A DNA stretch of 38,686 nucleotides from the IMG/VR virus record IMGVR_UViG_3300030329_000334, positions 1 through 38,686 of that record. One strand, 5' to 3'. This document shows positions 11,091-21,672 of this stretch, in pieces. Every line of letters starts with the position of its first letter. Within the stretch, counting starts at the first letter, position 1. The notes beneath the pieces are model-generated. The model did not search any database and was not told the origin of the DNA. It saw nothing but the letters and a program-made list of their open reading frames with translations. Source of the DNA: a virus. Made by a program: the position numbers and the translations under genes.

Positions 11091-11735
11091 TTATTTAGGA
11101 ATACCTAGAATAGGTCTTTTGTCGTATAGATTTTCTTTGCCGTACTTACCTTCAACATAATTATAATGTAAAAAAACTTGACCACAAAGTTTTCCTTTAA
11201 ATGGTTCTCTCCAATGTTCTAAATCACAACCAGAATAGATTAACATATCCCCTGGTTTTAAATCTATTTTTATTCCTTTAGGTGCATTAGGTTTCATAAT
11301 ATTTTTATACTCATCAATAACATTATCGCTTCCTGTCGGGTCTAAATAGATAGACCAAGGATCACCGCCAAGATTAAGTGTAGTAGATATTTCACATGAA
11401 GGTCTGTCTTTATGTCTACATAAAACATTACCTGTTCTATATAATCTTGTATAGGCATAAGTAGGAATAAGATTTAATCCTGTTTTTTTTTGCATGACAG
11501 GCATAGTTTTAATTAATAATGTTTCCATTAAACGATCTGCATATTTAGCATAAGAATTAGGAACTTGTCGGTCTGTAAAATTTCCAATTAAAGGATTTGC
11601 AGTATGAGTTTTGTTGTTTTGTAGCATCCAATAGTCTGCTTCAGCAGAGATTTGCAAGTAAGTAAAAGCTAAATCAGCTATATCTTTTGATATTGCTTTA
11701 CGAATTATTTGGTATTTATTTTTTTTAAAACTCAT
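11091..11735 (-). CDS. 2OG-Fe(II) dioxygenase
   Basis: A 214-residue 2-oxoglutarate/Fe(II)-dependent dioxygenase. The iron motif is CRHKDRPSCEISTTLNLGGD, with H108 and D110 in the HxD position, and the distal His is in SGCDLEHWREPFKG (H174), with R176 next to it and a C-terminal strand CGQVFLHYNYV. It matches prolyl-4-hydroxylase/AlkB-like jelly-roll enzymes. It is last of four such genes in a row. Likely substrate is unknown; nucleic acid or virion protein hydroxylation are both possible. Confidence 0.75.
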   Translation of the reverse strand: MSFKKNKYQIIRKAISKDIADLAFTYLQISAEADYWMLQNNKTHTANPLIGNFTDRQVPNSYAKYADRLMETLLIKTMPVMQKKTGLNLIPTYAYTRLYRTGNVLCRHKDRPSCEISTTLNLGGDPWSIYLDPTGSDNVIDEYKNIMKPNAPKGIKIDLKPGDMLIYSGCDLEHWREPFKGKLCGQVFLHYNYVEGKYGKENLYDKRPILGIPK

Positions 11736-12331
11736 GTTTGTATAAAATTATAAGATACAGATACTCTCCAGCTTTTTTCACCTTTATCTGTATTCATATT
11801 AATATCTACACCATGAGGCAGCCATGAAGGAAAGAATATCATACGACCTTCAATAGCATCGTAAGCTGTAACTCTCCATAATTGTTTTGGTAAATTATCT
11901 AATCGTCTAGGCATATAAATATTAGGTCCTGGTCTAGGATCTTCAAAAAATATCTTACCGCTATCTTTAGGTACTTTAATATAATACACACCTGACCATA
12001 ATGAGTTTGGGTGAGTGTGGGTTTTGTTGTAACTATAACTAGGATTAATATTACACCACATATTACCTAGTCCCAGCTTAGGTTGAATACCATAATCTTT
12101 ATTACATTCTTCAGCCATCTTAAATAATTCTGATGTTAAAGGATTGTATTCTTTTTTTTCATTCATGTTTGTTGGACTATGCCAACCAAAACCAGAATTT
12201 GTTTTTGTTTCACCTTTAGGATTTTTTTTATACCAAGCCTTTATATGTTTAAATAAATATTTATTTATTTTTTTAGCATCAGGTAAATCTTTCCAATAGA
12301 TAGGAGTAGGAAATAATACTTCTCGATTCAT
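11732..12331 (-). CDS. 2OG-Fe(II) dioxygenase (2OG-FeII_Oxy_5-like)
   Basis: A 199-residue enzyme. The strand KTHTHPNSLWSGVYYIKVPK carries the HxH-type iron motif (H105 and H107), then GKIFFEDPRPGP, a distal His in FFPSWLPHGVDINM (H173), and R189 in SWRVSVSYNF, the pattern I recall for the TIGR02466/2OG-FeII_Oxy_5 family. It starts MNREVLFPTPIYW, also typical. It overlaps both adjacent oxygenase genes by four bases. Confidence 0.75.
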   Translation of the reverse strand: MNREVLFPTPIYWKDLPDAKKINKYLFKHIKAWYKKNPKGETKTNSGFGWHSPTNMNEKKEYNPLTSELFKMAEECNKDYGIQPKLGLGNMWCNINPSYSYNKTHTHPNSLWSGVYYIKVPKDSGKIFFEDPRPGPNIYMPRRLDNLPKQLWRVTAYDAIEGRMIFFPSWLPHGVDINMNTDKGEKSWRVSVSYNFIQT

Positions 12332-12915
12332 TTAAAAGGTGGACCACCAAACCACATAACAAGAGATCGTCTTATTCCTTTTTTAACTGGAGCTACTCTA
12401 TGTCTCATAAAAGATGCAAAGAATATAGCTTGTCCTTGTTGTAATTTTATTACATCTTGTTTACCTGTATCAGAAAATAATAAATCACCGCCTGAAAATT
12501 CAGAAGGATCAGATAATAAACAAGTCATAGATATTTTTCTAATAGGATGTTCACCATTAGCACCAAAAGGATTTAAGTCCATGTGCCAATCATAAAAACC
12601 ACCTTTAGGATATTCTGTAAACTGTGCGGGTTCTGTAATTTTAACACCATCAAACATAAAGTGATTTAAATTAACTTTGGATATTTGTTGTTCAATAACT
12701 TTATACATCTGTGGTAATTTTTGAAATGGAATCCAACTAATTGTAGTAACTCTTTTTTTAGTATCATGCTTACCTTTTTTTCCTCCACCTACTCTAGCTT
12801 GTTCAGGTTTACAAGAATGACCAGCATTAATAATATCTCTACATTGTTCTGGACTAAATAAAGGTCCTGTTGTAGTAGCAACATAAGACTGCCATGGTGG
12901 CATATAAGTTATCAT
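12328..12915 (-). CDS. 2OG-Fe(II) dioxygenase (PKHD-hydroxylase-like)
   Basis: A 195-residue enzyme. YPKGGFYDWHMDLNP holds H111 and D113; RKISMTCLLSDPSEFSGGD is the characteristic strand; the distal histidine is in FMRHRVAPVKKGIRRSLVMW (H172), with R182 expected to bind 2-oxoglutarate. This matches the Fe(II)-dependent PKHD-type hydroxylases (YbiX-like). N-terminus (SYVATTTGPLFSPEQCRDII) also fits the group. It overlaps neighbours by four bases, so it is in the same transcript as the other oxygenases. Confidence 0.75.
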   Translation of the reverse strand: MITYMPPWQSYVATTTGPLFSPEQCRDIINAGHSCKPEQARVGGGKKGKHDTKKRVTTISWIPFQKLPQMYKVIEQQISKVNLNHFMFDGVKITEPAQFTEYPKGGFYDWHMDLNPFGANGEHPIRKISMTCLLSDPSEFSGGDLLFSDTGKQDVIKLQQGQAIFFASFMRHRVAPVKKGIRRSLVMWFGGPPFK

Positions 12916-13574
12916 TCGTTTTGTCCTCCTGCCGATCTACTTGCTACTGGGTTATAATCTACATCTACATTACAAACTAAAGTTCTTCTTTTTTCTTTTG
13001 TAGAATTAAAAGGATAAACACAATGTCTCATGTCATAAGGAAAAACATAGAAGTCTCCAATCTTCATGTTTGGAGAATAATCTGTTTTAGCAAACTGACC
13101 TGCAGCAGCACCTATAATTTGTAATCGTCCATTCATAGGTTTGTCTTGTGCTGAATATTCCATACCTGTTTCTTTTGGTAATTTTAAACACATTACAGAA
13201 GATAAGCCTGTAAAAATTTTACCTTGATGAATATGTACTGGATTATATTCGTTGGCTTTCATTTCATTAACCCATATAGAATTTATTGATCTATGGTTTT
13301 CACCAACTTTATTCCATGTAAGATAATGATTAAATATAGAATCAAACCATTGTAGAATATCTTGAGGTAAAAAAGAATGTTGGTGCATTTTATTACTGTT
13401 AGGACCAGAATAAAATAAAGACACTTCATCTTCTATTTTACCTACAAGTTGTTTGTTTGCTTTAGGTAATTCCTTTTTTCTTTTTTCGTATATATCGTTA
13501 AGAGCAACAAATACCTCTAAGGGTACTTGGTATTTTAAAACTGTTTGACCAAGATAAACAAAGTCGAACTTCAT
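12912..13574 (-). CDS. 2OG-Fe(II) dioxygenase-like protein
   Basis: A 220-residue protein. NEMKANEYNPVHIHQGKIFT has H114 and H116 as iron ligands in an HxH-type motif; GDFYVFPYDMRHCVYPF provides the distal H184; and the basic KRRTLVCNVDV following gives the 2-oxoglutarate Arg. The double-stranded beta-helix layout is shared with the next gene. It is the first of the four oxygenases and overlaps the second by four bases, with a one-base gap from the coiled-coil gene upstream. Confidence 0.7.
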   Translation of the reverse strand: MKFDFVYLGQTVLKYQVPLEVFVALNDIYEKRKKELPKANKQLVGKIEDEVSLFYSGPNSNKMHQHSFLPQDILQWFDSIFNHYLTWNKVGENHRSINSIWVNEMKANEYNPVHIHQGKIFTGLSSVMCLKLPKETGMEYSAQDKPMNGRLQIIGAAAGQFAKTDYSPNMKIGDFYVFPYDMRHCVYPFNSTKEKRRTLVCNVDVDYNPVASRSAGGQNE

Positions 13575-13575
13575 A

Positions 13576-14244
13576 TTATTTTTTTAGTTTTTTATTTTCT
13601 TTACCTTTAGGTAGTAACTCGCCATCTTTTATAACTCTATTTAATGTATCAAGTTGTCCTAATACATTAAAAACTTCAGGTTGAGATGAACCTGGTGTTA
13701 GTGTTGCTTTTTGATGTTGTAATCTTAACATATAAGATTTAGCTTGGTGGGTATTAACATCTTCTTTATCAAATTTACCATCGTCAAATTCTTTTTTAAG
13801 TTTAGACCATGTTGCTACTTCTCTCATTCTATGTTTAGCAACTAACTCCATACTTGCTTTACCATAAATCTTTTCTTCTAATTCTATTTGTAATAATTGT
13901 TTTTCTAATTTATTTTTTTCTTTACTTATCTTATCTCTTATCTTTTCAATCTCTACATCATTCTTTCTAGCATCAAAAGATAAGTGCATTAAATTTTCAA
14001 AGTGAGTATTCTGTTCTCTTACACATTGCCAATACTTTGCAGCTTTAGTTGGATATTTATTATCTGATAATACAGAAAATCTCATTTCTGTTTCTGTACG
14101 AAACATTTGTTTTTTTTTCCAAGTATCTTTAAGTTCAGGAATTAAACTTTTAAATTGTTTAACATCCTCTTCATCCAAAATACCTGTTAAGTATTTAGAT
14201 TGAGTTTTAGCTAATGTTTGTATGTTGCGTTTTTCTTTTGACAT
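13576..14244 (-). CDS. coiled-coil protein, possible small terminase/head-linked role unknown (222 aa)
   Basis: A 222-residue charged, mainly helical protein starting MSKEKRNIQTLAKTQSKYLT. Residues 95-135 form a strong coiled coil (VEIEKIRDKISKEKNKLEKQ, LLQIELEEKIYG), and the C-terminus is Lys-rich (KGKENKKLKK). I do not recognise it. It heads the oxygenase block and has its own promoter candidate at 14257-14284, which suggests it is expressed with the oxygenases. A scaffold or chaperone role is conceivable, but nothing in the sequence decides it. No ribosome site lies before the start. Confidence 0.6.
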   Translation of the reverse strand: MSKEKRNIQTLAKTQSKYLTGILDEEDVKQFKSLIPELKDTWKKKQMFRTETEMRFSVLSDNKYPTKAAKYWQCVREQNTHFENLMHLSFDARKNDVEIEKIRDKISKEKNKLEKQLLQIELEEKIYGKASMELVAKHRMREVATWSKLKKEFDDGKFDKEDVNTHQAKSYMLRLQHQKATLTPGSSQPEVFNVLGQLDTLNRVIKDGELLPKGKENKKLKK

Positions 14245-14256
14245 AAAGTCATAACC

Positions 14257-14294
14257 AATCTACTTATTTATAGATTAAGGTCAAGTCTTAATCT
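14257..14294 (-). promoter_or_regulatory. promoter candidate plus terminator-like hairpin before the oxygenase block
   Basis: On the minus strand, TTGACC (14279-14284 plus coordinates), a 16-base spacer and TAGATT (14257-14262) make a plausible promoter whose start would be close to the ATG at 14244. A perfect 8-base stem AGATTAAG/CTTAATCT (14272-14279/14287-14294, 7-base loop) overlaps the Kelch-gene stop; no long T-run follows it. Read-through and new initiation at this junction are both possible. Confidence 0.35.
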
Positions 14295-16099
14295 GTGTCA
14301 AATGTCTTAGTTGTGAATGGTACAGTCCACTCTTCTGTTGCATTAGAAACACTACCAGTATTACCACTAAATGCTAGTCCTGAAACAGATGAACCTGATC
14401 CTCTAATATTGGTTCTTGCTGTTCCTAAATCAGCCACCTCTGTCCAGCTTGAACCATTAAATGATTCTGTAATTGCAAGGTTACCACCTGGAGTGCCTCC
14501 TCCAAAAGCTAACCCAGAAGTAGTGTTGCCACTACCGCCTGGAAATTGCCTTCCTGTGTTTAAATTTCCAACTTCTGTCCAACTTGATCCATTCCAAATT
14601 TCAGTTTCATTATGGGTATCGTCTCCTCCAAAAAATATAGCAGATGAATTACTTGGTCCCGCTCCTGCTCCACCTTGCCTTTGTGTATTTACATTGCTAA
14701 CTTCAGACCAACTTGATCCATTCCATGTTTCTGTGTTAGCAGTAAGACTGCCGTCACTACCAGAAAATAAAAGAGCACTGCCTTGAACCCCAGACGAGCC
14801 TCCATAATATCTACCTTCATTTAAATCTCCAACTTCTGTCCACGATGACCCATTCCAAGATTCTGTTACAGCTGTAGACCCTGGATTTCCTCCAAATACA
14901 AGTGATGATGTATTATCTGCACCAGCTGATGAACTTCCATATCTATCTGTGTTTAATTCAGTTACTTCTGTCCACGAGCTTCCATTATAATTTTCTACTT
15001 GTGCAACTGCAGCTGTTGTATAACCTGATATACAGTTGGATGAAGTTTGAGTTCCAGACCCTGATGTTAATCTTCTAGCGGTATTTAAACTTCCTCCAGT
15101 AGACCAAGCACCTGTTCCTTGTGCAGCATAACCTTTTAAAACACTGTCAACACCTGTTGCAGTTTTAACCCAAACTTGTCCAGTTTGTACTGCGGGTGCG
15201 GATGGGAAAGCAAATTCTTCTGTAACAGCAACATTTGTAGTTGTATAACCACCTGTTGCAAACATAGTATCAGGCGAACTTTGTGGAGAAGCTCCCATTT
15301 TTGATCTTGCAGTAGATAAATCAGCTACTTCAGTCCACGAAGTTCCATTCCAATGTTCAGTAACGCTTTTAGTTCCTGGTTGTCCACCAAAAACATATCC
15401 TTCAGTAGAAGTTCCAGAATGAGAACTATAAAATCTTTGTGTATTTAATTCAGCTATTTCAGTCCATGCACTACCATTCCATGATTCAACTGAAGCACTA
15501 TAATAAGGTGCTGATGCTAAACCACCTCCAGCTAAAATAGCAGCAGTAGAACTACCAAGTCCACCACCTAATCCTGTTCTAGCTGTATTTAAATCTCCAA
15601 CTTCAGTCCAAGAAGAACCATTATAAGATTCATTAACAGCTTGATCGCTACTTCCATCAGTACCACCAAAAGCGATTGCTGCAGTCTGTGTTCCTGCTGC
15701 ACCAAGTTGATCTCGTCTAGTATTTAAATCTCCAGATTCTGTCCAGTTTGTACCATCATATTCTTCAGCTTTTATTTCTTTGTTAGGAGAACCTGATTCT
15801 AATCTTCCAGCAACAGCTAAACCAGCTGTTTGCGTTCCTGTTCCAGCAAGTAACCATCTTGCTGTATTAAGATTGTTTCCCTCTGTCCAAGATGTTCCAT
15901 CATATTCTTCTGAAAGATTATAAGCAGGTGGATCACCTCCACCACCAAATACTAATCCTGCTGTAGTTGTTCCAGCACCACCCATAGATTGTCTAGCTTG
16001 ATTAATATTACCACCGCTAGTCCATGCTCCTGCATAAGCAAGTGGATCAGTATCTGTAACTTTTATTGTGTAACCTTTTATATCTTTATATTCAGCCAT
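14288..16099 (-). CDS. tail fibre/receptor-binding protein, two six-repeat Kelch-like propellers (603 aa)
   Basis: A 603-residue protein built from Kelch-like repeats of roughly 45-50 residues, each with NGSSWTEVGDLNTAR-type core and a GG-rich loop (LVFGGN...). I count twelve repeats in two blocks of six, each block starting with GAW(S/T)(S/T)GG and ending in TEEF or TEEW, which looks like two closed six-bladed beta-propellers joined near residue 305 (GQVWVKTATGVDSVLKGYAA). The first 14 residues (MAEYKDIKGYTIKV) are shared with the two related genes and probably attach the protein to the virion. Likely the receptor-binding or glycan-binding spike. Strong codon-level internal repetition is evident. 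Confidence 0.7.
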   Translation of the reverse strand: MAEYKDIKGYTIKVTDTDPLAYAGAWTSGGNINQARQSMGGAGTTTAGLVFGGGGDPPAYNLSEEYDGTSWTEGNNLNTARWLLAGTGTQTAGLAVAGRLESGSPNKEIKAEEYDGTNWTESGDLNTRRDQLGAAGTQTAAIAFGGTDGSSDQAVNESYNGSSWTEVGDLNTARTGLGGGLGSSTAAILAGGGLASAPYYSASVESWNGSAWTEIAELNTQRFYSSHSGTSTEGYVFGGQPGTKSVTEHWNGTSWTEVADLSTARSKMGASPQSSPDTMFATGGYTTTNVAVTEEFAFPSAPAVQTGQVWVKTATGVDSVLKGYAAQGTGAWSTGGSLNTARRLTSGSGTQTSSNCISGYTTAAVAQVENYNGSSWTEVTELNTDRYGSSSAGADNTSSLVFGGNPGSTAVTESWNGSSWTEVGDLNEGRYYGGSSGVQGSALLFSGSDGSLTANTETWNGSSWSEVSNVNTQRQGGAGAGPSNSSAIFFGGDDTHNETEIWNGSSWTEVGNLNTGRQFPGGSGNTTSGLAFGGGTPGGNLAITESFNGSSWTEVADLGTARTNIRGSGSSVSGLAFSGNTGSVSNATEEWTVPFTTKTFDTD

Positions 16100-16100
16100 G

Positions 16101-17978
16101 TTAATCCGTTATTGTTAAATTACTTAATGAAGAAGGTATAGTCCATTCTTCTGTTGCTGCTGGTTGTGTAGGAGCAGAAGCAATACCACCACATACTAAT
16201 CCATTTGCATACGCACCTATAGAAGTACCATTATAATTTGCTGTAGATAAATCTGCTACTTCTGTCCATGCCGAACCATTCCATGCTTCTGTAATAGTAT
16301 AATAAGTTGATCCAGCTCTACCACCTACAAATAAATGTAATGGAGTGCTAGTACCTATACACATTCCACCTTGTCTTTCTGTATTTACATTAGATATTTC
16401 AGTCCAGGATGATCCATCCCATGTTTCTGCATCATTAGTATTTCCAGAACCAGGATGACCTCCAACTCCCATTGCGTCTGTTGAAGTGCCTGAACCTCCA
16501 ATTTGAGTTCTTGACATATTTAAATCAGATACTTCAGTCCAAGAAGAACCATTCCAGCTTTCTGTATTTGCTGTTGTTCCCCCGCCTGATACTTCTCCAC
16601 CAAAAGTAATAGCTGCTGTGTTGGTTGCTCCACATCCACCTGCTTGCGCTCTTGCAGTATTAACATCACTAACTTCTGTCCAAGAACTTGAATCCCAAGA
16701 CTCTACATTTGCCATACCTGATGCTTGACCAGCAAGAATCCCTGAAACAGATAAAGCTCCTGATGGTGTTCCTGCTCCTGTATTATATCCTCTTGATGTA
16801 TTAATTTCTGTAATTTCTGTCCATGATGAACCATTATATTGTTCAACTGCAGTATAAGATGCACCAGGAGAATATTTATTTCCACCAGCTAACATTGCAG
16901 TAGTTTGTGAAGAACCTATAGCAGCATTTTGTGATCTAGCTTGATTTAAATTTCCTCCAGAGGACCATGCACCTGTACCTTGTTGAGTTAATGTAACTTT
17001 CATGTCGCCTGTATCACTACGATAATAAACTTGTCCTTCTGTTTTTATTGAATCTGTTATTGTTGCTGCTGTAAATTCTTCTGTTGCTGTTCCTCCAGGA
17101 CCGCTTGAACCACCAGCGATAGCTAATGCTTGAGTAGCTGTGCCTGCACCATTAACTTCTCGCCTTGCTGTTGATACATCATTAATTTCAGTCCAAGAAG
17201 AACCATTCCAATATTCTACTAAGGCACTAAGTGTAGGACCACTATTAGTTGTTCCTGCAATTACCAATGCAGCAGTAGAGTTTGCTGCTGCAGCTGCATT
17301 ATATCCTCGAGAAGTATTTATGTTTGTGGTTTCTGTCCAACTAGAACCATTCCAAGTTTCTACAGTTGCAGATGGGTTTGCTGCTCCATCTGTTACTCCA
17401 CCTGCTCTTATAGCATCTGTCTGAGTTCCACCTCCTGAAGTTCCATATATTGCTGCATTTAAATCACCAACCTCTGTCCAACTTGATCCATCCCATGTTT
17501 CTGTTAAAGCATATGGTGTAGAAGAAGGAGAACCTTCTCCGCCAAATATTAAAGCTGAAGTGTTTGAAATTCCTGCTGAACCACCTTCTCTTCTTGCTTG
17601 GTTTATCTCGCTAACTTCAGTCCAAGAAGAGCCATTCCAACTTTCGCAATTAGTTACCCATGTAGTAGTATATCCTCCAGCTGCTATTGCAGATGTTTGT
17701 GTTCCATTTCCAAATATATCAAATCTTCCTGTATTTAAATCAGCAACTTCTGTCCAAGCTGTTCCATTATACTGTTCTGTATTTGCACTGCCTCCTGGAT
17801 ATACTCCCCCAGCTATTTGTCCTGCACTATTCGTGCCTGTTTGAGCAGTAGCATCAAACATTCTTGCAGTATTGCAAGCTGCACCACTAGACCAAGCACC
17901 ATTAGCTATACCTGATCCTAAAGGATCAGATGTCCTATTTTTAATAGCTTGTCCTTTTATAGCTTTAAATTCTGCCAT
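16101..17978 (-). CDS. tail fibre/receptor-binding protein, two six-repeat Kelch-like propellers (625 aa)
   Basis: A 625-residue paralogue of the 14288-16099 protein, with the same start style (MAEFKAIKGQAIKNRTSDPL) and the same two blocks of six repeats. The linker is TEGQVYYRSDTGDMKVTLTQ at about residue 315, and each block ends with TEEF or TEEW. The repeats vary in the loops (GGEGSPSSTP and so on), the likely sites of receptor contact, while the SSWTEV core is constant. It lies one base from its neighbour and is in the same operon. Beta-propeller fold is inferred from repeat count, not seen directly. Confidence 0.7.
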   Translation of the reverse strand: MAEFKAIKGQAIKNRTSDPLGSGIANGAWSSGAACNTARMFDATAQTGTNSAGQIAGGVYPGGSANTEQYNGTAWTEVADLNTGRFDIFGNGTQTSAIAAGGYTTTWVTNCESWNGSSWTEVSEINQARREGGSAGISNTSALIFGGEGSPSSTPYALTETWDGSSWTEVGDLNAAIYGTSGGGTQTDAIRAGGVTDGAANPSATVETWNGSSWTETTNINTSRGYNAAAAANSTAALVIAGTTNSGPTLSALVEYWNGSSWTEINDVSTARREVNGAGTATQALAIAGGSSGPGGTATEEFTAATITDSIKTEGQVYYRSDTGDMKVTLTQQGTGAWSSGGNLNQARSQNAAIGSSQTTAMLAGGNKYSPGASYTAVEQYNGSSWTEITEINTSRGYNTGAGTPSGALSVSGILAGQASGMANVESWDSSSWTEVSDVNTARAQAGGCGATNTAAITFGGEVSGGGTTANTESWNGSSWTEVSDLNMSRTQIGGSGTSTDAMGVGGHPGSGNTNDAETWDGSSWTEISNVNTERQGGMCIGTSTPLHLFVGGRAGSTYYTITEAWNGSAWTEVADLSTANYNGTSIGAYANGLVCGGIASAPTQPAATEEWTIPSSLSNLTITD

Positions 17979-17988
17979 GAGGATTTTA

Positions 17989-18288
17989 CTATGGTAATGT
18001 TATATCTGTTGGTCTTGAGTATCTAGCTTTGTATTCATCAGATTTTGCATCATAAGCGGCTTGTGCTGCTGTTACTTCTGCATCAACAATAGCTTGAGCT
18101 TCAGCTTTAGTTTTTTCAACACCAGCTACTCTACCTATCCATCTACCACCATATACATTATCTTCAGTAACCCAAACATCACCAGGGAAGCCTTCAATAT
18201 GAAACATTTTTCTATCTTCATGACGAATAAATGGATCACCATTGGCTTTCTTTCCCCAATTTGCTTTAACACTGTATTTGTATGCCAT
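17989..18288 (-). CDS. small fibre-associated protein (99 aa)
   Basis: A 99-residue protein MAYKYSVKANWGKKANGDPF, with a compact N-terminal part (MFHIEGFPGDVWVTEDNVYG, RWIGRVAGVEK) and a long C-terminal helix (KAEAQAIVDAEVTAAQAAYD). Its place between two fibre genes suggests an attachment, trimerisation or chaperone function, by position only. AGGAGG is just upstream of its start. I recall short proteins like this in related marine phages but no characterised function. Confidence 0.6.
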   Translation of the reverse strand: MAYKYSVKANWGKKANGDPFIRHEDRKMFHIEGFPGDVWVTEDNVYGGRWIGRVAGVEKTKAEAQAIVDAEVTAAQAAYDAKSDEYKARYSRPTDITLP

Positions 18289-18321
18289 AGTTTCCTCCTT
18301 TTTTGTTGTTATAAATCATTT

Positions 18322-19329
18322 TTAACTCGTTGTAACTGTTTTAATTGAATGAGAAAGTGTCCATTCTTCTGTAGTTGCTACTCCTGGATCACCTGCTGGT
18401 GTTTGACCACCTACAGACATAGCTTGTGTATTTGTACCTGCTGCAGTTCCTATATTTCCATTAACTGCAGTTGCTAAATCAGCAACTTCCGTCCAACTAC
18501 TTCCGTTCCATGATTCTGTTTTTGTGCTTTTTGAAGGTTCATTTCCACCAAATAATAAAGCAGATGTACTTGTTGCTCCTGTACTTCCTCCATGTGATCT
18601 TCCTGTATTAATTTCAGTTGTTTCAGTCCAACTACTGCCATTCCAAGATTCAACTACATTTAAATAATTAGGTGGATTAAAACCACCAAAAGCTAAAGCT
18701 GCGGTTGAAGTTCCAGCACCACCAGCTCTCATTCTTACTGTGTTTAAATCTCCTACTTCAGTCCAACTACTACCATTCCAACTTTCTGTTTCTCCTTTTC
18801 TTGATGCTGGAGAACCTGCTTCTCCACCAAAAGTTAATGCTGCTGTGCTAGTGCCAGTTCCTTGATTACCTTCTCTAGCTAAATTTAAATCTCCTACCTC
18901 TGTCCAGCTACTGCCATCCCATTGTTCATTTGCTGCACTTTTTGGTGGTATTGATCCGCCAAAAGCAAGAGCTGCTGTGTTAGTTGCTCCACATCCACCT
19001 GCCGCCATTCTAGCTGTATTTAAATTTGCTAATTCAGTCCAAGATGATCCATTATAAGATTCTGTTTCATTGGCAGCAGCAGAATCATTTTTATATCCAC
19101 CAAATACAAGACCAGCAGTTTGTGTACCTCCACCACTAGACATCATACCTAATCTTCCTTGATTTAAATTTCCACCTGAACTCCAAGCTCCAGTTCCTGG
19201 ACCTAAAAATTCATATTGACCATTCGATGAATTATAATAAAGTTCACCTGCCACTTGTGGGTAAGTTGTAGGCATTGAACTTGATCTAACTTTAACAGTA
19301 GTACCTTTGATTTCTTTATATGTTGCCAT
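18322..19329 (-). CDS. tail fibre/receptor-binding protein, one six-repeat Kelch-like propeller (335 aa)
   Basis: A 335-residue single-propeller relative of the two larger Kelch-like proteins. It starts MATYKEIKGTTVKVRSSSMP, has a short module (GELYYNSSNGQYEFLGPG) and six repeats beginning at GAWSSGGNLNQGR and ending with TEEWTLSH. The N-terminal module also appears as the linker of the larger proteins, so the larger ones look like duplicated fusions of this unit. Loops vary (KSAANEQWDG, PSKSTKTESWNG). Expected on the tail fibre as receptor-binding tip. Confidence 0.7.
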   Translation of the reverse strand: MATYKEIKGTTVKVRSSSMPTTYPQVAGELYYNSSNGQYEFLGPGTGAWSSGGNLNQGRLGMMSSGGGTQTAGLVFGGYKNDSAAANETESYNGSSWTELANLNTARMAAGGCGATNTAALAFGGSIPPKSAANEQWDGSSWTEVGDLNLAREGNQGTGTSTAALTFGGEAGSPASRKGETESWNGSSWTEVGDLNTVRMRAGGAGTSTAALAFGGFNPPNYLNVVESWNGSSWTETTEINTGRSHGGSTGATSTSALLFGGNEPSKSTKTESWNGSSWTEVADLATAVNGNIGTAAGTNTQAMSVGGQTPAGDPGVATTEEWTLSHSIKTVTTS

Positions 19330-19335
19330 TTATCA

Positions 19336-21672
19336 TTATCCTTTAACCAACCAACCTTGTGTTGAATCTGTAAAAACTAATGTAATTGCAGCTCTCTCAA
19401 CACTTATTGTTAAGTCTGCAGCTGATCCTTCGATCTTTTGTGAATTTCTACCGACTGTTAAAGGATAAGTATCAAATGTTCCAGCATAATCTATAATTGA
19501 CACTTCATCTCCTAAACTAGGTGATGCTGGTAAAGTAACTGTAAATGAACCTGATGTTGTATTTGCAAATACACCTTCTAAAGCAGATGCTGTGTAGTTA
19601 GCAGTTTTAACAGACTGCCAATCTGTTCCTCCACCTGCTGCGTCAGAAAATACAGGTGCAGCACCAGCTCCTTGAGAAGTTAATACTTGTCCTGAATTAC
19701 CAGTTGATACTGCTGCAGGATTACCACTAGCATCATAAGTAATTAGATTACCATCTGTACCAGAAGCCATTTTTGCAAGTGTTACAGCATCATCCTGTAT
19801 TTCTGCTGTAGCTACTCCTGAATCTTTAATTGTTATTGCACCTGAACTAGCAGCAAAGTTATCTGAACTAAATGATGCAGCACCTTTTACAGATGTAGAA
19901 GCATCAGCTAAATTTATTGTAACTGTTCCTGATGTACCACCACCAGATAAGTTTGTACCTGCTGTAACTCCTTCAATATCTCCTGTACCATCAGCACCTG
20001 AGTAAGAAAAATGTACACCAACACCATCTGTGTTTGAAAACGATCCACTTGAAACAACATGAGTTACTGGAACTTTTGTATATCCTGATGCGTCTGTAAC
20101 TGCACCTGATACTTTAAAAGTTGCATAAGTTGATGCTGTTCCTTCTTTGGTAATTGTAACAATACCTCTAGCTGTAGAATTAGAAACATCATCCCAAGAT
20201 TGAACATAACCTGATATATCTGCTGAAGCATCATCTGCATCATCCACATATAAAATAGAAACAGAACTTAATGTACCATTATTAAAAGCGATTTTACCTG
20301 CACCTGGATCAGCATCAGAAGTTGAGCTTGACCAAGTCATTGATAATTGTGAGTTTGTACCACTTGCTCCCGTAGAACCTGTTGCTCCTGTACTTCCTGT
20401 AGCACCTGTAGAACCTGTGTCTCCTTTTAATCCTGTTCTTGTGTAATGAACTGATAATTCATCAGCAGCACTAAAAGTATTATTAGAAGCAAGGTGAGCA
20501 ACTGTAATTTTGTTGTAGCCGCTTTCATCACTAACCGCAGCTGTAATTTTAAATCTTGCATAAGTTGAGCTATCGTTAATATCTACAATGTGTAAAAATC
20601 CTTTAATTGTAGAAGTTGATCCTCCCCAACTTTGAACATCTGTAGCTGTACTAGCACCATTAGCATCAGCATCATCAATATAAATTTCTGTAGCTGAAGC
20701 ATAAGTTCCATTGTTAAATGCTATTTCTCCAGCACCAGGGTCTGCATCAGATGTACCTGTATCAAACTTATAGAAATAACCTGGTATTGCACCATCTTCT
20801 CCACTTGCTGTAAATGCAATCCAACATTTATCATCGTTTGCAAAAGTACCTGCAGAGTCAATATGAACTAAAGTAACTTTAGTATAACCACTAGCATCCG
20901 TAACAGCACCACTAACTTTAAATACCATCCAAGTATCTAATGTGTTAGCTTTTGAAATTCTTATTCTACCTCTATTAGTATCGTTACCTGATACATCATC
21001 CCATGATTGTACCCATGCTGAAATATCTGTTCCATTGTATTCTAAATCATCAACATATATTTCTGTTGCACTAGCAATCGTTGCGTTATTTAATCTAAAA
21101 TATCCTGCTCCAGGATCAGCATCTGTAGTTGTTGTTGAATATTGAAACATTGCTGAATCTCCACCTGCAGGTAAAAAATCAGCTACTGTTGTTAAGTTAC
21201 CATCGCTATCAAATCCTAAAGTTTTAGATGCTCTTGTACTAGCATCATCTGTAAATTCTGGTGTTGTAATTGTGTTTGTTCTTGAAACTTTAAATGATCT
21301 ATCAAGCTCCTCTTGCATTTGCTGGACAGTCATGGTTGCACGATCCAAACCCTCTTCGTGAGTCTCCGCAGGGAATGGATCATTGGCTATATAATCTATA
21401 GCCTGTGTTTGCGGGACAGCTCTTCTAATAACAACAGTTTCGCCTGAAGCTGGGGTATTACCAGAAGTGAAAGTTACATTTCCACCTGAAGCATCTCCTG
21501 CACCAGAAACTGTATAGTGTGTTGTTAGAGTCTTTGTTGTTTCAGTTCCTGTTGAGGAACGGATAATGACCTGAAGGTCTGTGTCTGCAAATATTTTAAA
21601 TGCGTAAGCAAATTCAGTTGTAGAGCCATTGCCTGAATATGAGTTTTTTACTGTAGTTGAAGATACTGTCAT
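19336..21672 (-). CDS. T7-type tail fibre protein with collagen-like segment (778 aa)
   Basis: A 778-residue fibre. Residues 1-150 resemble the N-terminal attachment domain of T7-like tail fibres (SYSGNGSTTEFAYAFKIFAD, IIRSSTGTETTKTLTTHY, FPAETHEEGLDRATMTVQQM). From about residue 185 there are three repeats of around 110 residues, each with a TSDADPGAG start and a DVQSW or YVQSWDDVS core, and between the second and third lies a collagen-like run of Gly-x-y triplets (GDTGSTGATGSTGATGSTGA). The C-terminus (WLVKG) follows a pyramid-like beta part. Triplet runs have no proline. Likely a trimeric fibre connecting the tail to the Kelch-like tip proteins. Confidence 0.75.
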   Translation of the reverse strand: MTVSSTTVKNSYSGNGSTTEFAYAFKIFADTDLQVIIRSSTGTETTKTLTTHYTVSGAGDASGGNVTFTSGNTPASGETVVIRRAVPQTQAIDYIANDPFPAETHEEGLDRATMTVQQMQEELDRSFKVSRTNTITTPEFTDDASTRASKTLGFDSDGNLTTVADFLPAGGDSAMFQYSTTTTDADPGAGYFRLNNATIASATEIYVDDLEYNGTDISAWVQSWDDVSGNDTNRGRIRISKANTLDTWMVFKVSGAVTDASGYTKVTLVHIDSAGTFANDDKCWIAFTASGEDGAIPGYFYKFDTGTSDADPGAGEIAFNNGTYASATEIYIDDADANGASTATDVQSWGGSTSTIKGFLHIVDINDSSTYARFKITAAVSDESGYNKITVAHLASNNTFSAADELSVHYTRTGLKGDTGSTGATGSTGATGSTGASGTNSQLSMTWSSSTSDADPGAGKIAFNNGTLSSVSILYVDDADDASADISGYVQSWDDVSNSTARGIVTITKEGTASTYATFKVSGAVTDASGYTKVPVTHVVSSGSFSNTDGVGVHFSYSGADGTGDIEGVTAGTNLSGGGTSGTVTINLADASTSVKGAASFSSDNFAASSGAITIKDSGVATAEIQDDAVTLAKMASGTDGNLITYDASGNPAAVSTGNSGQVLTSQGAGAAPVFSDAAGGGTDWQSVKTANYTASALEGVFANTTSGSFTVTLPASPSLGDEVSIIDYAGTFDTYPLTVGRNSQKIEGSAADLTISVERAAITLVFTDSTQGWLVKG

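Follow-up and report, generated by a model that had tools for sequence, protein, structure and literature searches.

Oxygenase clusters in described marine phages

Groups of 2-oxoglutarate (2OG)/Fe(II) oxygenase genes have been described in several marine phages. The closest to the locus analysed here are those of the HTVC023P-type pelagiphages, for which eight non-orthologous 2OG genes are reported and in which several such genes lie beside a phrog_2954-type gene, just as they do in this locus (PMC9599517, Wittmers et al., 2022). The cyanophage S-SCSM1 was reported to carry 24 2OG genes (PMC9602691), and Fe(II)-dependent oxygenases of metaviromic islands have already been listed under 'host recognition' (PMC3909814). 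The pelagiphage gene of phrog_2954 type has been treated as a ferrochelatase and an auxiliary metabolic gene (PMC9599517), and phrog2954 was named as being seasonally enriched together with 2OG oxygenases (PMC11561400). No tested function is reported in the literature found on these genes. Consecutive oxygenase genes are also present in HTVC008M (five), Mosig (several), and HTVC033P and HTVC023P (three each). The initial annotation of the present locus, which regarded four different oxygenases in one operon as unusual, was therefore only partly right: clusters of three to six were known before.

Genome setting and gene layout

The window, meaning the whole stretch of DNA analysed, comprises the 38,686 bases of one IMG/VR record and comes from a podovirus with kinship to the phages of SAR11, an abundant bacterium of the ocean. 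The isolates nearest to it are HTVC010P-type pelagiphages, with the portal and terminase of HTVC100P being 79 and 82% identical to those of the window. The genes of interest are all on the minus strand and are listed here in the order of transcription, with the five genes of the cassette designated K, D, C, B, and A.

19336-21672, minus strand: T7-type stem of the tail fibre, including a short Gly-x-y stretch that resembles collagen (tail PHROGs)
18322-19329, minus strand: Kelch-like protein, one six-bladed propeller (Kelch_6 and structure match)
17989-18288, minus strand: small conserved protein (99 aa) between Kelch-like genes (present in 47 of the IMG loci compared)
16101-17978, minus strand: Kelch-like repeat protein, two six-bladed propellers, hypervariable (repeat units)
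14288-16099, minus strand: Kelch-like repeat protein, two six-bladed propellers, hypervariable (repeat units)
13576-14244, minus strand: K, all-helical, first gene of the cassette (remote phrog_1409 similarity)
12912-13574, minus strand: D, PF13759 2OG-Fe(II) oxygenase (Pfam)
12328-12915, minus strand: C, PF13640 2OG-Fe(II) oxygenase (Pfam)
11732-12331, minus strand: B, TIGR02466/PF13759 2OG-Fe(II) oxygenase (Pfam, NCBIfam)
11091-11735, minus strand: A, double-stranded-beta-helix oxygenase-fold protein, phrog_2954 (predicted structure, metal motif)

The four adjacent, overlapping genes annotated at 11091-13574 correspond exactly to open reading frames, with 4-base overlaps at D/C, C/B, and B/A, while K stops 1 base ahead of D. 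Their placement next to fibre genes was also sound, as the neighbours are a T7-type stem with matches to tail PHROGs and three Kelch-like genes, identified through Kelch_6 and structure matches. The promoter candidate put forward for K was not borne out: promoter-like matches in the region numbered 13 against 31 expected in shuffles, and a separate promoter for this gene was rejected. The whole genome of the near isolate HTVC100P contains neither the cassette nor PF13759, so K-D-C-B-A is dispensable.

The order C-B-A is common to the window, HTVC023P, HTVC033P, and 023Pt_psg01. In the latter three phages it occurs without D and K, beside two to three Gly-rich tip-like paralogues, whereas in the window, which belongs to an HTVC010P-type phage, D and K are present as well and tandem Kelch propellers take the place of the Gly-rich tips. 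The T4-like pelagiphages HTVC008M (gp068-072) and Mosig (Mosig_00053-00060) likewise have consecutive oxygenases, including a relative of A, near fibre, baseplate or neck genes, but these clusters differ from that of the window in order and composition and have no match to K. The Mosig cluster is immediately followed by a gene for haem oxygenase and one for phycocyanobilin:ferredoxin oxidoreductase (L005:10984-12220). Genes annotated as 'DNA endonuclease V' (phrog_274/2297 type) were also observed inside oxygenase clusters (L005:8663-9175; L288:6242-6724). Weak matches link phrog_274 to B and C and URG13117 to PF13640 (E 0.029), and a 'DNA endonuclease V' of P-SSM2 matches the model of A; these genes are possibly a second mislabelled oxygenase family.

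Oxygenases B, C, and D

By Pfam, all three proteins pass the cut-off of 27 bits, with B and D matching PF13759 (74.4 and 42.5 bits) and C matching PF13640 (56.4 bits). B also passes TIGR02466 (126 bits, cut-off 62.5), which D fails (18.2 bits). The candidate metal sites are HxH in B (H105/H107 with H173) and D (H114/H116 with H184), instead of HxD/E, and HxD in C (H111/D113 with H172), and each is followed by a 2OG-binding arginine motif (R189-x-S191 in B, R182-x-S184 in C, R196-x-T198 in D). The metal triad and the arginine with its following x-S/T do not vary among 165 sequences of C and 134 of D; among 182 B homologues the triad is found in all and the arginine in 165, the remainder being alignment gaps. 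From the family cut-offs together with these conserved residues, B, C, and D are assigned to the 2OG/Fe(II) oxygenase superfamily.

In a search of PDB sequences, the C profile matched PiuC-type PKHD hydroxylases and prolyl 4-hydroxylases with E values down to 5e-15. Against PRK05467, the NCBIfam equivalog for PiuC/PKHD, C scores 71 bits, which is below the cut-off (the best model scores 143), so that C is a relative of the PiuC/PKHD-type hydroxylases and not a member. The B profile matched two uncharacterised proteins, and no useful match was obtained with the profiles of D, K or A. B and D are related to each other (profile-profile, E 2.4e-5), and no near full-length relative of D above about 30% identity was found in the phage collection.

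Protein A and the 'ferrochelatase' label

Protein A matches phrog_2954 and phrog_3531, both of which bear the label 'ferrochelatase'; neither Pfam nor NCBIfam gave it a match to an oxygenase family. An AlphaFold2 model built with 29 homologues (pLDDT 85, pTM 0.86) has a double-stranded beta-helix (DSBH) like that of prolyl hydroxylases, and compares with 2OG oxygenases at a Foldseek E of 1e-7 and VIA-align Z of 13-14.5. Its best PDB fold matches are Pseudomonas putida P4H, PHD2, HygX, EvdO1, and SnoN, with an identity of just 8-18%. P. putida P4H acts on EF-Tu. The HxD...H triad of A is conserved throughout its alignment (H108 and D110 in 185/185, H174 in 183/185 with two gaps) and is also kept in the cyanophage members. 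No match emerged when the profile of A was compared with those of C and D (the alignments were shallow), so the kinship of A to the oxygenases rests on fold and motif.

Unlike the P4H and PHD2 proteins with which it shares the DSBH fold, A has no canonical 2OG arginine about 9-12 residues past the distal histidine; C184 (182/185, three gaps) and Q186 are found there instead. Three arginines, R97, R111, and R176, are invariant and may be candidates for an alternative co-substrate anchor. The initial annotation had foreseen four distinct oxygenase-type proteins, two with HxD and two with HxH motifs, and this agrees with B, C, and D by Pfam and A by fold, with HxD in A and C and HxH in B and D. 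In each of the four enzymes the metal triad is practically invariant across the 134-185 distinct homologues, a few alignment gaps aside. Of the iron and 2OG sites that the initial annotation wished to see confirmed in all four, the metal triads were found throughout and the 2OG arginine in B, C, and D but not in A, which leaves the description of all four as ordinary 2OG enzymes unproven.

True ferrochelatase (PF00762) had no match in the 13 records that carry relatives of A, although the same model matched 8 of 14 control genomes; conversely, the phrog_2954 model matched none of these 14. Eight relatives of A are annotated as 'ferrochelatase', and a Pfam ferrochelatase match was found in none. 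The absence of PF00762 from A-bearing records, the positive controls and the DSBH fold of A mean that the 'ferrochelatase' label of phrog_2954 is almost certainly wrong, and such a role for A was rejected. The gene placed beside the 2OG genes in the HTVC023P-type system (PMC9599517) accordingly has a 2OG-oxygenase fold, and the reported co-occurrence of phrog_2954 with 2OG oxygenases is largely one of oxygenases with oxygenases. One of the eight relatives, S-SCSM1 gp124, is a fusion of A and C with PF13640 at its C-terminus, and phrog_3531 is likewise cited as a natural A-C fusion, an arrangement that agrees with A and C possibly cooperating.

Protein K

Similarity of K to phrog_1409 is remote (E 5.7e-5; 2.6e-7 to 9.6e-6 for cassette contigs) and may reflect coiled-coil bias. 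This family, T4-like GC 353, belongs to the fibre region of cyanophages, a similar position that favours kinship with K. Fold searching of K returned weak matches (best E 3e-3), and no match was found among 50,697 phage records. In cyanophage S-ShM2 (SShM2_033-042), tip-like proteins are followed by a phrog_1409 (K-like) protein and then directly by two PF13759 oxygenases. This phage differs in being a T4-like myovirus whose oxygenases are remote relatives, with no relative of A in the stretch read. The 'minor coat protein' SShM2_041 (L436:8955-9671) lies between two oxygenases and weakly matches DUF6445, with 20.1 bits where the cut-off is 24, and may be a further oxygenase instead of a coat protein. 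Seven more of the cyanophages sampled, P-HM2, S-RIM2, S-H25, P-RSM1, Syn19, P-SSM4, and Syn33, also have a relative of K, but in all seven the adjoining genes are not annotated as oxygenases.

Kelch-like tip proteins and fibre stem

The product of 18322-19329 matches PF13964 (Kelch_6) with 32.8 bits (cut-off 25.3) and Kelch structures with an E of 1.5e-13, KLHL3 and KLHL2 being at about 1e-13. The Kelch-like proteins have repeat units of 6 and 2x6, each blade carrying a motif of the type W-N-G-S-S-W-T-E-V-x-D-L-N-T-A-R. Repeated motifs are the sort of target used by hydroxylases of repeat proteins. Prolyl hydroxylation of the Kelch proteins was considered and rejected, as proline makes up just 2-3% of residues and lies outside the conserved blade motif. 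Collagen-type prolyl hydroxylation was likewise rejected for the fibre stem: the Gly-x-y stretch GDTGSTGATGSTGATGSTGASG is without proline and Pfam Collagen is below its cut-off. A tblastn search of the phages with a Kelch protein found nothing, perhaps due to low-complexity masking.

Comparison with a sister contig (L010) showed the cassette and fibre stem to be 97-100% identical to the window and the three Kelch proteins only 51-62%. Across 14288-19329 this amounts to tip swapping or hypermutation between near-identical phages. The Gly-rich tip-like paralogues beside C-B-A in HTVC033P, HTVC023P, and 023Pt_psg01 share an NTPPVSPPQG-type motif (paralogues at L003:2392-6464, L004:2684-5634, and L288:1016-5223). 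Proline could matter in such tips, but not as a target common to the tip types.

Gene order, co-inheritance, and selection

Four IMG/VR scans were undertaken, one per enzyme, and K-D-C-B-A was by far the commonest order among the resulting loci, which are biased to their query. Due to this bias, two further IMG/VR scans were made, from K alone and from the Kelch-like protein alone. Among new loci of the K-seeded scan with at least 4 kb downstream, C-B-A was found in 42/42 and D-C-B-A in 40/42. With the Kelch-like protein as query, K was present in 43 of the 45 loci extending at least 1.5 kb past the last Kelch gene (two were without K), and the complete cassette in 26 of the 28 extending 3.8-6 kb. 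When every distinct K locus followed by 3.5 kb or more of sequence was counted, most of these having been found with cassette queries, C-B-A followed in 137/137 and D-C-B-A in 134/137. A Kelch-like open reading frame lies directly upstream of K in 115 of 133 K loci. The two genes K and D are adjacent in 120 cases and separated by over 700 bases in 55, indicating extra sequence at some loci.

The identity matrices of the five cassette genes correlate with one another at r 0.75-0.90, but with that of the Kelch gene at just 0.24-0.33; mean identity is 81-85% for the cassette against 43% for Kelch. Median dN/dS of the five cassette genes is 0.06-0.09, representing strong purifying selection, and the open reading frames are therefore not due to chance. 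K-D-C-B-A is one cassette of fixed order whose genes are inherited together, and its coupling to hypervariable Kelch propellers is near-obligate. Independent scattering of the oxygenase genes across phages, which the initial annotation had named as evidence against its proposal, is refuted by the very strong order and co-inheritance.

Spread among phages and bacteria

The lineage of the window is HTVC010P/HTVC100P-type. A second contig with the cassette (G001) has a portal 56% identical to that of HTVC106P, and a third (G005) has a PolA 63% identical to that of 023Pt_psg01 and 62% to that of HTVC027P, which places the cassette in at least three SAR11-phage-like lineages. The portal, tail-tube, internal-virion, and capsid genes of the window were not found in cassette loci besides L010, many of which are fragments, and a portal search in other cassette contigs was empty, partly for the same reason. 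In G001 (IMGVR_UViG_3300030098_002339, 88284 bases), two genes for the large terminase subunit lie about 44 kb from each other, and K matches at two places, both with an oxygenase set alongside; the contig is either a joining of two related phages or an artefact of assembly.

Among the 50,697 phage records no K-D-C-B-A cassette was found, and D has remote relatives only. The A profile found 12 loci in 84,980 bacterial and archaeal species (one genome each), among them C-B-A contigs filed as Pelagibacteraceae single cells, which are probably phage DNA. Marine-phage 2OG clusters, their 'ferrochelatase' association and Fe(II)-oxygenases in host-recognition islands had been published (PMC9599517, PMC9602691, PMC3909814); as far as our searches reached, the K-D-C-B-A unit, its coupling to Kelch proteins, its occurrence in several lineages and the correction of phrog_2954 are new.

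Proposed role of the cassette

We tentatively propose, at a confidence that falls somewhat short of probable, that K-D-C-B-A is a module for the post-translational modification, or maturation, of tail tips. The cassette would be expressed together with the tail-fibre genes, presumably late, and its four oxygenases would cooperate in modifying freshly synthesised tip proteins, the products of the genes immediately upstream (in the window, the tandem Kelch-like propellers), by hydroxylating side chains across their many near-identical blades. The helical K may serve as a tip-assembly or adaptor protein, and the modification would alter the folding, stability or receptor binding of the tip. This proposal draws directly on the enzyme folds and families, conserved metal sites, fixed order, co-inheritance, and purifying selection, on the constant place of the cassette behind tip genes and on constant enzymes beside variable tips. 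The linkage to differing kinds of tip, this constancy against variable tips and the transfer across lineages argue for tip maturation rather than host metabolism. Against it, adjacency may reflect the co-transfer of a variable region and not chemistry, and since the tips beside C-B-A are wholly different between phage types (Kelch or Gly-rich), no common target motif was found. The two Kelch loci without K, the absence of the cassette from HTVC100P and the missing 2OG arginine of A likewise count against it. A more specific version, in which a multi-enzyme oxygenase line transferable between phage families hydroxylates the repeated blades of beta-propeller receptor-binding proteins, with A using a non-canonical co-substrate pocket, is doubtful. 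With regard to the modification system suggested by the initial annotation, a single unit tied to fibre genes is upheld, its multi-step nature is something we infer, and its nucleic-acid option is unsupported.

The same linkage and co-transfer with host-recognition genes would arise if the enzymes modified the host surface or a surface metabolite, in receptor masking or superinfection exclusion, with tips and enzymes linked through a shared receptor, and the close PDB folds of A do include small-molecule pathway enzymes (HygX, EvdO1, SnoN). Receptor-specific chemistry should vary, however, and here the enzymes are constant while tips vary and one cassette spans several phage lineages, making this explanation unlikely. 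It is distinctly unlikely that these are ordinary auxiliary metabolic genes, drawing down 2-oxoglutarate or tuning host nitrogen, iron or energy metabolism: although this is the standing hypothesis for cyanophage 2OG genes (PMC4164917, PMC9602691), it leaves unexplained the fixed order, the lock-step co-inheritance with K and the constant place behind tip genes, and its iron/haem version rests on the unsupported 'ferrochelatase' label. Tip regions are known variable islands (PMC3909814), and A and C are found without D and K in other phages, so the cassette might be a passenger with functions unrelated to tips, carried as recombination swaps whole fibre regions. Frequent loss or replacement would then be expected, yet all 42 K loci retain C-B-A, 26 of the 28 Kelch loci with room for it have the full set, and purifying selection on the genes is strong; we consider a passenger quite improbable. 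Nucleic-acid oxidation, as AlkB-like repair or base hypermodification, is highly improbable; repair genes are found close to some of the 2OG genes of cyanophages (PMC9146016) and AlkB homologues are among the fold matches of A, but the best matches of A and C are prolyl-hydroxylase/PiuC-type proteins, and neither the tail position nor the Kelch linkage fits.

Few unexplained genes are as common in ocean phages as those for 2OG oxygenases, which are usually classified as metabolic. A cassette locked to the tail tip makes a role in tip-protein hydroxylation directly testable, and the correction proposed here concerns a label, phrog_2954 'ferrochelatase', that is used in published marine-virus studies.
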